37,140 bases of DNA from Thermoplasmata archaeon (GTDB lineage: Archaea; Thermoplasmatota; Thermoplasmata; Lutacidiplasmatales; UBA184). This document shows positions 1,022-4,749 of the stretch, one piece after another (the first letter of the stretch is position 1; each line of letters begins with the position of its first letter). The stretch covers positions 1 through 37,140 of the forward strand of contig JAJZGO010000005.1 of NCBI GenBank assembly GCA_021798415.1, given 5' to 3'. The notes beneath the pieces were generated by a model, which did no database searches, was not told the origin of the DNA, and saw only the letters and a list, made by a program, of their open reading frames with translations. The translations under genes were made by a program, and so were the position numbers.

Positions 1022-1285
1022 ATGAGCGCCACCGTTGGAAGCCCCCGGTGGAGAATCAGTCCGAGTGCGCTTCTGAGGTTCACAGGATTGATCTTTGTCG
1101 CCGCCGGGGCCTTCGAGTTCGCGTGGTCATTTACCCAGGGTTGGTCGAACGCCTCCGGTCAGGCCGCCGCTTACTCCGACCAGAGCATTTGGCTCGCTGA
1201 AGCTGTGGGGGGATACCTAGTGGGGATTGGTCTCGTCTTGCTGGCCGTTGGAGTCGTCCTTGCCGGATTCCGCAGGAAGAGCTAG
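1022..1285 (+). CDS. Small membrane protein, about two hydrophobic segments, unknown function
   Basis: ORF with hydrophobic stretches LLRFTGLIFVAAGAFEFAWSF and AVGGYLVGIGLVLLAVGVVLAGF followed by RRKS. Confidence 0.6.
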   Translation: MSATVGSPRWRISPSALLRFTGLIFVAAGAFEFAWSFTQGWSNASGQAAAYSDQSIWLAEAVGGYLVGIGLVLLAVGVVLAGFRRKS

Positions 1286-1334
1286 ACTACACCCGGCCCC
1301 GGAGTCCTATCGGAATGGGGCCGTCTCATTGAAG

Positions 1335-2642
1335 ATGTTGCCGTTTGGGAGGCGGGAGCTCTTCCGCTGTCATGGCAGACAGCCGGTGATCCGCCCGCTG
1401 TGCCCCCAGACCATAGCCGCAGCACTGACCCTTCTCGTGCTGGGGGCGGGTTGGAGCCACGCGAGCCTCTCGAACTCCTGGACTTCAACGACGGCCGCCG
1501 GGGCGACGGCTAATCTCGAGTGGAGGGAGATTTCCTCCGCGGCCCAAGCTGGCCCCGCGCCCACACTTCCCAGCGCACGGTACGGCGCGGCCTTCGCGGA
1601 TGACCCCGCATTGGGAGCCACCCTCCTCTTCGGAGGGATGTGGCAGTACGAGATTTCGGTGTATCCCTACGCCATTTTCGAGTATTTGCTGAACGATACG
1701 TGGACTCTCTCTGACGGAAAGTGGACCAACCTCACTGAATCTGGCCCGTCTCCTCCTGCTCGGTGGGGCGCATCGATGGCATACGACCCGGCCTTGAACG
1801 GCGTCGTGTTGTTTGGGGGGCAGACGATAGTATGTCGTCCTCTCTACTGTGCAATCGTTACCCCGCTCAATGACACCTGGTTGTTCTCCGACGACCACTG
1901 GACGAACGTCACCTCCCAGTCGCCCCTGCGCCCACCTGCCCGATACCAAGCAAGCATGGTCTACGACCCGGCCGAAGGAGCCCTCGTGCTCTTCGGCGGT
2001 ATTCAGCAGCCGGACGGTCAAGCCCTCAATGACACATGGGAGCTCCGCGGTGAGGCGTGGTCGCACGTAACGGATTCGCGCACGCCGCCCGCGCGTTTCG
2101 GGGCTGCCTTCGGATACGATCCGCAGGCCGGCTCGACCCTCCTGGTCGGCGGGTCAGTGTATCGCGGTCCAAGCCTCGTGGCGACGACTGTTCCGGACGC
2201 GTGGAGCTTCTCCGCGGGTGCGTGGACTAACATCACGGCGACCGAAACTCCCGCCGTGGCGGCCACCTCCGCCCTCGGATTCGACCTCAGCGCGAACCTA
2301 ACCCTTCTTTGGGGCGCCTATGGCACCGGCGTTTGGTCCTTCCAAGCTGGACAGTGGACAGCAGTCAGGACCCTCGGCTCGCCTCCCTCGCGGTCTGAAG
2401 CGAGTTTCGCCTGTGACGCCACTCTTCAGGGCTGCATCCTTTTCGGCGGAATAGCCACGAGCGGGAACGGAATCACTCCCGTCCTGGGGGACGCTTGGTT
2501 GTTAACGCCCTCCGTGAATCTGCCCCTGTCGGAGATCGTGGTGACGGCCCTGCCCGTCGCCTCAGCTATCGCCGGAGCGCTATTTGTAACGTACTTAACA
2601 CGAGCACGGGGTCGCTCGAAAAAGGGAATGGACCCGCACTGA
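1335..2642 (+). CDS. Kelch-repeat surface protein with N-terminal signal-like and C-terminal membrane-anchor segments
   Basis: Repeated units of the type LLFGG...NDTW.....W.......PPAR..ASM.YDP (about 6); signal-like TIAAALTLLVLGAGWSHA; C-terminal IVVTALPVASAIAGALFVTYLTRARGRSKK. Start set at ATG 1335 in the 1227..2642 ORF frame. Confidence 0.75.
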   Translation: MLPFGRRELFRCHGRQPVIRPLCPQTIAAALTLLVLGAGWSHASLSNSWTSTTAAGATANLEWREISSAAQAGPAPTLPSARYGAAFADDPALGATLLFGGMWQYEISVYPYAIFEYLLNDTWTLSDGKWTNLTESGPSPPARWGASMAYDPALNGVVLFGGQTIVCRPLYCAIVTPLNDTWLFSDDHWTNVTSQSPLRPPARYQASMVYDPAEGALVLFGGIQQPDGQALNDTWELRGEAWSHVTDSRTPPARFGAAFGYDPQAGSTLLVGGSVYRGPSLVATTVPDAWSFSAGAWTNITATETPAVAATSALGFDLSANLTLLWGAYGTGVWSFQAGQWTAVRTLGSPPSRSEASFACDATLQGCILFGGIATSGNGITPVLGDAWLLTPSVNLPLSEIVVTALPVASAIAGALFVTYLTRARGRSKKGMDPH

Positions 2643-2651
2643 TCGCGTGGG

Positions 2652-3255
2652 TCAAGCCTTGCGATCCATGAGCGCCCCGTGCACTATGAAGTTACCGAAG
2701 ACAGTTGTTACCGCATCGTAGACAAGGGTGTGATCCTGAACGGTCTGGATGCTCGTTAACGGTATCCAAGTCATGGTCACGGGGTCGAAGATTCGGTCAC
2801 TTGTGGTCAAGTTCTGGGGGTCCTTCAACCCGCCTTGGTACGTCGCGCTCTTGATGTAGATCGGCTGATCGGTAGGGGTAACACGCAAGAACCCGTGGTG
2901 GATTTCCCGCACGGTCGAGACGTCGGTGGTATTGGCCGACAGCAATGTCCGTCCCACTAGACTAAGTCGCGAGGTCATACTCCTCGACCGCACTTTGCTG
3001 CCTCAAGTCGTGGATGGGAACGTACCCTTGGGGGGGTGAGAGTGGGCGTCCCAGAGGCGACACATCCGCCCCCTCCCGGTTCGGTGGTGATTCCCATCAA
3101 TGGAAGGTCACCGTACCCCGAGGGCATCACGTAACTCGTGCTTCCAATTCAGGCGTGGAGGGCGACGGCATCGCCAGACGGTCCGTCGAGTTGGGTCCAC
3201 GCCTCGATTGAGCCGAAGGTCATTGCCCCGGCGGGTGCGCTTTCCGCATCTAAAC
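2652..3255 (-). pseudogene. Frameshifted Hint-domain-containing surface protein remnant
   Basis: Listed ORF 2652..2993 gives ...TTDVSTVREIHHGFLRVTPTDQPIYIKSATYQGG...DRIFDPVTMTWIPLTSIQTVQDHTLVYDAVTTVFGNFIVHGALMDRKA. Upstream in other frames: GGGGCVASGTPTLTP (Cys codon 3062-3064), shift at a 7-G run 3030-3036, then QGYVPIHDLRQQSAVEEYDLAT, then another shift into the listed ORF. Further upstream IGSTSYVMPSGYGDLPLMGITTEPG with a stop at 3149-3151. Confidence 0.65.
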
Positions 3256-3263
3256 GCGGCGTC

Positions 3264-3410
3264 CTAATTTATTGCGCATAGCCGCCGAAGTGTGTCGTTC
3301 GGAGCGCGCCGTTCGTCGAAGGCCATCTTCACCGCCGAACGATCGAGTCAATAGCGGGGCAGCACCGAGTGGGGAGGCAGCGCCCCCGCGTGAGCTTCCA
3401 CCTCGCCACC
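3264..3410 (-). pseudogene. 3' remnant of an IS630-family transposase
   Basis: Minus strand reads ARWKLTRGRCLPTRCCPAIDSIV then, after a frameshift, AVKMAFDERRAPNDTLRRLCAIN* (stop 3264-3266), matching the WKLTRR...TLRRLCAI C-terminus typical of IS630 transposases. 3378-3402 matches window bases 1-26 with one substitution and one indel. Confidence 0.7.
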
Positions 3411-3426
3411 GTGTCGGGCAGTATCT

Positions 3427-4749
3427 CTAGCCGCTCGCGCCCTCGGCGTCGACCGGGCGGACGGGCTCGTAGCCGAGCCGTCGCAGGGCGCCGAACCCGA
3501 CGACCATCACGAGCCCGAAGAGGGCGATCGCTCCGCCGGCGGCGAGGTACGTCCCCTGGATCCCGACCGCGAGAAAGATGAGGCCGCCCGAGAACTGGCC
3601 GACGGGAACGAGGGCGTAGCTGCCGACCTCGTCGGCCGAGAAGACGCGCCCCATCATCTCGTCCGGGACGGTCGCCTGCACCGTCGAGAGGAAGACGGTC
3701 GTGATCATGCCGGGCATGAGGCCGTAGACGAACGCGATCGGGAGCGCGAGCCAGATCGACCGCACGAGCCCGAACGCGAGGAGCGCGACCCCCATGAGGA
3801 GCGTGAGCGCGATGATGACCCGACCCGCCCGCGGCTCGAACTTGAGATGGGCCACCAGCACGAACCCGACCGCGGTCCCGATGGTGACGACCGCGATCAT
3901 CCCGCCGTACCAGATCCCGTTCGCGAGCCCGAGCCAGTCCTTGAGGTAGAGCGCGAGCTCGACCAGCGCGACCGCCGACAAAAAGTTCACGACGAGCGCG
4001 GCCACGGTGATCTCGAGGAGGTCGCGACGTCGTCCGAGATAGGCGAACCCCGCCCGCGCCTCGGTGAGCACCGCCCGCGGCTTCGCCTTCCGCGTCACCG
4101 AGAGATCGATGTCGAGGACGATCAGCGCGACCTGGGTCGCGAAGAACAGCACGAACGGGATCGCCAGGGCGTAGACCATCGGCACGACCGCGAGCAGCAC
4201 CCCGACCGCGATCGCCCCGACGGCGCTCGCCACCGCCGCGACCGCGTAGATGATCCCGTTCGCGCTCCCCAGGTCGCGCGACTCGACCAGGCGGGGGACG
4301 GACGTGTTGAAGGCCGGCCGGAACAAGGTCGACGTGGTCGTGACGAGCGCCCACCCCGGGTAGAGGAGGACGACCCAGAGCGGCAGGTAGAACCCCGGCG
4401 GTCCCGGGAGCGCCAGGTGCGTCGCGGGCGCGTAGACGAGGTCGGCCGCGAGGGCGGCGGTCGCGAGGATCGAGACGAGGTTGACCGTGCGCATCAGGTG
4501 GCCCCGGTCGTGGCGGTCGGCGAGCGCTCCCGAGACGAACGCGCTCCCGAGCGTCGGCAGCGTCGAGGAGAGGCCAAGGAAGGCGAGCGCGATCCCCGCG
4601 TAGCTCGTCGGGGTCCCGGACGGGTACGCGAACGCGACCGCGAACAAGAGGACGACGAGCACGGTCGACGGCGCCGCGAACTGGAGCGCTCCCGCGCACA
4701 GGAACGCCGGGAACGACCGGTGTCGGAACAGGGCCCCGTACCGGTTCAG
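3427..4749 (-). CDS. MFS transporter
   Basis: Polytopic protein with MFS-like GALADRHDRG loop. Homologous-looking sequence (LNRYGALFRHRSFPAFLCAGALQFAAPST) continues upstream of the listed GTG start at 4662 to a CTG at 4747-4749; true start uncertain. Confidence 0.75.
   Translation of the reverse strand: MNRYGALFRHRSFPAFLCAGALQFAAPSTVLVVLLFAVAFAYPSGTPTSYAGIALAFLGLSSTLPTLGSAFVSGALADRHDRGHLMRTVNLVSILATAALAADLVYAPATHLALPGPPGFYLPLWVVLLYPGWALVTTTSTLFRPAFNTSVPRLVESRDLGSANGIIYAVAAVASAVGAIAVGVLLAVVPMVYALAIPFVLFFATQVALIVLDIDLSVTRKAKPRAVLTEARAGFAYLGRRRDLLEITVAALVVNFLSAVALVELALYLKDWLGLANGIWYGGMIAVVTIGTAVGFVLVAHLKFEPRAGRVIIALTLLMGVALLAFGLVRSIWLALPIAFVYGLMPGMITTVFLSTVQATVPDEMMGRVFSADEVGSYALVPVGQFSGGLIFLAVGIQGTYLAAGGAIALFGLVMVVGFGALRRLGYEPVRPVDAEGASG

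Follow-up and report, generated by a model that had tools for sequence, protein, structure and literature searches.

A decayed Thermoplasmata surface-protein gene ending in a Hint domain, and a clade of relatives with glutamine or glutamate at the block-B histidine position

The Hint fold is shared by inteins, BIL domains and Hedgehog proteins. No catalytic residue of inteins is more conserved than the block-B His, and Ser is the other nucleophile that inteins use. In Hedgehog the TxxH His of block B is retained, and a sterol-recognition region follows the Hint part. A-type BIL domains have a C-terminal His-Asn and cleave at the C-terminus (PMC7765530). When the block-B His of the Ssp DnaB intein was changed to Ala with Gly at position -1, the N-S acyl shift was abolished (PMC6333167), while other inteins without the block-B His can stay active via compensating residues (PMC7765530, PMC7664689). 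Here we describe a locus in a stretch of 37,140 nucleotides (the window) from a Thermoplasmata archaeon. The window carries a decayed pseudogene of a predicted secreted Thermoplasmata surface protein ending in a Hint domain with Gln at the block-B His position (Q-type). In open-access papers, judged by title and abstract, no description of the Q-type clade was found.

The broken copy in the window

On the minus strand at 2652-3255, three successive reading frames carry the pieces of one Hint domain in order, the domain itself spanning 2655-3096 (Table 1). A profile of 14 relatives (A4), which contains no window sequence and so avoids circularity, was run against the six frames of the window. 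The top match was 2655-3002 (-) with E = 5e-36 (model 41-142), followed by the segments 2965-3096 (-) with E = 3e-4 (model 11-38) and 2978-3148 (-) with E = 1.3e-3 (model 3-19); the fourth-ranked match had an E of 5. Because the pieces are adjacent, on the same strand and in the correct order, an arrangement that chance does not give, they represent a single domain split by two frame changes. This agrees with the first-pass annotation, which had read the frame across a 7-G run and a second shift near 2960. A chance open reading frame was considered and rejected.

Table 1. Features of the locus in window coordinates
Feature	Position	Strand	Remark
Intact Kelch-repeat surface protein	1227..2642	+	Convergent to the remnant; membrane anchor seen by eye at the C-terminus
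Hint domain remnant	2652..3064	-	Cys1 codon 3062-3064 to stop codon 2652-2654; frame reading and A4 profile
Gln codon at block-B position	2865..2867	-	TPTDQP; His in inteins, BIL and Hedgehog domains
Second frame change	2958..2967	-	TAG 2962-2964 in the abandoned frame
7-G run	3030..3036	-	C on the coding strand; site of a frame change
Gly-Gly-Gly-Gly linker	3065..3076	-	Immediately before Cys1; typical of relatives
Upstream coding-like remnant	3077..3249	-	In-frame TGA 3149-3151
Residual 3' end of an IS630-type transposase copy	3250..3484	-
Intact MFS transporter	3427..4662	-	Upstream of the remnant

Compared with its intact relatives, the window copy has two frame changes, a TGA and a 5' truncation, and it is the sole copy detected in the genome (94% complete). 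By these lesions it is a pseudogene. The remnant also lacks the block-B TxxH His and the terminal HN, as had been noticed at first pass: it ends in LMDRKA-stop. Since the same splicing residues are missing across the whole clade, their loss is not decay peculiar to the window copy.

The coding remnant adjoins an IS630-type end that stands in place of the 5' part of the gene, a loss that the IS may have caused or may have followed, and the initial description as a surface-protein remnant next to an IS remnant was borne out. This end was matched at three other places in the genome, at two of them from exactly 3250 and at one a base or a few off, and a related IS630-type copy, on contig C28, includes the HTH and DDE_3 domains of a transposase. 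The window stretch 3250-3484 is 86% identical to 8196-8431 of contig C7 (G000:C7:8196-8431), a stretch that runs to the end of that contig and is perhaps a repeat at which the assembly broke. The upstream sequence had been thought to stay open up to the IS630 remnant, a claim that did not survive the in-frame TGA. For the segment upstream of the Gly linker, a search detected no relative, and it is no more than a putative preceding module of the surface protein.

Pfam gave zero matches to the stitched remnant alone even at E 10, the NCBIfam search returned nothing useful, and a single-remnant scan of the genome contigs found no relatives; an alignment-based profile was needed to find them. Viral contigs gave no match and no sign of a phage origin.

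Intact relatives and the Q-type clade

Matches occur in 10 of 103 genomes of the same family, counting that of the window, and most are long intact frames. At the level of the class, a profile that includes the remnant has matches in 50 of 400 genomes, a count that also takes in canonical forms. The named records are Thermoplasmata MAGs plus one labelled Bathyarchaeota and one labelled Micrarchaeota, and MAG labels can be wrong. The first-pass annotation had proposed looking for intact homologues in related archaea and for Hint families in Pfam. The former were found in other Thermoplasmata, and on these intact relatives the latter gave sub-threshold matches, with Hint_2 aligned to the N end, Intein_splicing to the C end and PT-HINT spanning the domain. 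Because all Pfam matches fall below the gathering scores (Intein_splicing at best 25.1 bits vs 35.8, in L111; Hint_2 24.0 vs 28.4), the clade lies outside the existing Pfam models.

The profile searched against the PDB had its best match in the C. thermocellum BIL domain 2lwy (1.6e-9), followed by other Hint proteins and, lower, by weak Kelch matches. AlphaFold modeled the domain of L110, an intact relative 55% identical to the broken copy, with a pLDDT of 90.8 and a pTM of 0.84. Among the 50 Foldseek matches listed for this model against the PDB, all were Hint-fold proteins (BIL2, BIL, inteins and Hedgehog), all had E <= 5.1e-4, and the TM score by query length reached 0.80. By its predicted fold, the domain belongs to the HINT superfamily, and the Cys-initiated Hint-like fold suggested from the remnant is upheld.

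The relatives are mostly proteins of about 400-1060 aa that are predicted to be secreted and usually end in a Gly-run, a Cys and a domain of about 140 aa. Most long ORFs have an N-terminal hydrophobic stretch, signal peptides being judged solely by hydropathy scan. The ectodomains are varied, with an S53-type pro-domain in L119, a NEW3-like domain (sub-threshold) in L120, and Big_1 plus InlB-type repeats in L123. Among relatives of the L118 ectodomain, 8 end in Ig-like repeats and a membrane anchor (L129, L133-L135, L137-L139, L141), 6 end in nothing (L131, L132, L136, L144, L146, L148), and 3 end in a Q-type Hint domain (L127, L128, L143). These alternative ends fit, without proving, a role of the Hint domain as a substitute anchor in fixing or releasing the protein. 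Beside the block-B region, an N-x-T sequon (A4 columns N83-x-T85) is invariant in the aligned relatives, as would be expected of a glycosylated extracellular domain. Across 13 loci, the only conserved gene was that of the Hint protein itself, and no conserved partner gene was found nearby.

An unrooted maximum-likelihood tree of 60 domains separates the 51 Q-type rows from the others at a branch supported at 100/99; its His-type sample is small and partly bacterial. Residue statistics were scored on 47 full-length Q-type domains. At the block-B position 45 carry Gln, 2 carry Glu and none has His; in the alignment with 2lwy, the block-B His falls on this Gln. Position 1 is Cys in 42 domains, Ser in 4 and Tyr in 1, so that four of the five substitutes are Ser. 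Position 4 of block F is Asp in 41/47, and residue -1 is Gly in 36/47. The columns of lowest entropy are Val2 and the block-B Gln, with Cys1 tied fourth; the block-F Asp also ranks with the most conserved columns, and Val2, Gly23 and hydrophobic positions match Cys1 in conservation. On the other hand, the penultimate His and the terminal Asn, which inteins require solely for C-terminal cleavage, are lost: the penultimate residue is Asp in 25 domains, Tyr in 7 and others in the rest, and the last position has 3.27 bits. Where a class 1 intein has a C-terminal His-Asn followed by Cys, Ser or Thr, these proteins have LLDxK or variants and then end. The nine His-type rows included for comparison have the block-B His (9/9), Cys1 (9/9) and a block-F Asn (8/9); by eye, some of the His-type domains from other classes likewise have a block-F Asp, which is not exclusive to the Q-type. 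With Tyr for Cys1, the Q-type Hint domain at L106:2986-4995 would suit as a natural inactive control.

In almost every Q-type protein, no more than 14 aa separate the end of the domain from the C-terminus. The exceptions are L026/L112, with 321 aa after the domain, and L100 and L030, with about 35, and no membrane anchor was found after a Q-type domain. The first of these (L112:2999-5797, L026) is the only long Q-type protein with about 320 aa after the Hint domain, which by eye resemble beta-propeller (YVTN-like) repeats. In five His-type proteins, four from the same class and one from an Opitutaceae, the first or only listed Hint domain is followed by about 700 aa. In the other classes of the phylum, the sampled domains are His-type, often tandem and mostly internal, and the stretches read continue for 19 to 1290 aa beyond them; a few are also near the C-terminus. 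Giant proteins with tandem canonical Hint domains occur in these classes (L152 = G486:C62, L153, L154, L155 and L171). L152 has nine in a row, each ending in about HN with the Cys of the next domain close behind. The Opitutaceae (Verrucomicrobiota) protein at L124:4731-7460 has three tandem canonical Hint domains.

Possible activity of the Q-type domain

We infer from the residue pattern and the C-terminal position, as the likeliest reading, that the Q-type domain works like that of Hedgehog, with an N-terminal acyl shift only and no splicing, a proposal for which we hold belief and doubt to be evenly balanced. In the intact relatives, the protein would be exported and its C-terminal domain would fold as a Hint disk. 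Cys1, aided by the block-B Gln and the block-F Asp in place of His, would attack the residue before it, which is usually Gly, and so make a (thio)ester. Water or another nucleophile would then resolve the (thio)ester, and the C-terminus of the ectodomain would be released or modified with neither splicing nor Asn-driven C-terminal cleavage. The proposal is favored by the retention of the acyl-shift residues apart from His while those of the C-terminal step have drifted, by the C-terminal position of the domain with no membrane anchor after it, and by the activity of the inteins without a block-B His cited above. Against it are the usual Gly at -1, which is the context in which the Ssp DnaB His is essential, the block-F Asp that is not unique to the clade, and the Tyr1 of L106.

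A Q-type domain that is catalytically dead is a serious, if tentative, possibility. The domain would then be a stable C-terminal beta-disk serving as a cap or as a binding or assembly module, with His to Gln as a fixed loss of activity and Cys1 kept for packing. The Ssp DnaB result, the loss of the terminal His-Asn, the equal conservation of Val2, Gly23 and hydrophobic positions with Cys1, the lack of a conserved partner gene nearby and the existence of ectodomain relatives without a Hint domain all fit such a disk. However, the substitutes of Cys1 are mostly the intein nucleophile Ser, the block-F Asp is kept, and Gln or Glu stands at the catalytic His position in 47/47 domains, unlike the free drift of a dead site. 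Because the His is essential with Gly(-1) in Ssp DnaB and Gly is usual here, we leave the acyl shift at about an even chance and rate the dead disk somewhat lower. A further extension of the acyl shift appears unlikely to us, namely that in Thermoplasmata and a small number of further archaea the His-free (Gln/Asp) Hint domain links a surface protein, through its C-terminal Gly, to a lipid or other cell-surface nucleophile, as a Hedgehog-like, self-catalysed alternative to the C-terminal membrane anchor carried by other proteins with the same ectodomain.

Two other readings concern the window copy itself. It is very improbable that the organism has an intact gene and that errors of sequencing or assembly produced the frame changes and the stop. 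One frame change does lie within the 7-G run, and the assembly is a draft of 182 contigs, but some 200 bases hold two frame changes and a TGA, and the neighbouring Kelch and MFS genes read through without a break. Moreover, the 5' part is missing with the IS end in its place, a search of the genome with the ectodomain of one relative as probe found no piece of it at another place (ectodomains vary), and a Trp that is invariant among relatives is Gly in the remnant. Scarcely credible is descent of the remnant from an ordinary intein, or from a canonical BIL domain, that spliced or cleaved at both ends: the fold is the same and a BIL domain is the nearest solved sequence, but the block-B His and the terminal His-Asn are absent from the remnant and throughout the clade, and a domain at the very C-terminus has no C-extein. 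A canonical intein and an A-type BIL domain were rejected on these missing residues.

Comparison with known Hint systems

The window copy is a dead pointer to the Q-type family. With a uniform block-B Gln or Glu, Cys1 and block-F Asp kept and the C-terminal residues drifting, this family is a natural experiment on the catalysis of the N-S acyl shift or on its loss, and it places Hint domains in the Hedgehog position, at the C-terminus of predicted secreted proteins, in archaea. Like the Hog/Hint domain of Hedgehog (1at0, Foldseek E 7.6e-5), the Q-type domain has the Hint fold, begins with Cys1 (42/47, with Ser in 4/47) as the C-terminal domain of a predicted secreted protein and lacks a terminal Asn; unlike Hedgehog, it has Gln at the block-B His, and the protein ends a few residues after the Hint domain. 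BIL domains (2lwy and the Tetrahymena BIL2 6y75) are the closest by profile (1.6e-9) and by structure (TM 0.78-0.84) and likewise occur in variable secreted proteins, whereas the Q-type domain is C-terminal in its protein and has neither the block-B His nor the C-terminal pair. Class 1 inteins share the fold, Cys/Ser1 and the block-F Asp with the Q-type domain, which lacks their block-B His, penultimate His, terminal Asn and C-extein nucleophile. The Pfam families PT-HINT (PF07591) and Hint_2 (PF13403) match the Q-type domain in the expected registers, but every match is below the Pfam gathering score.
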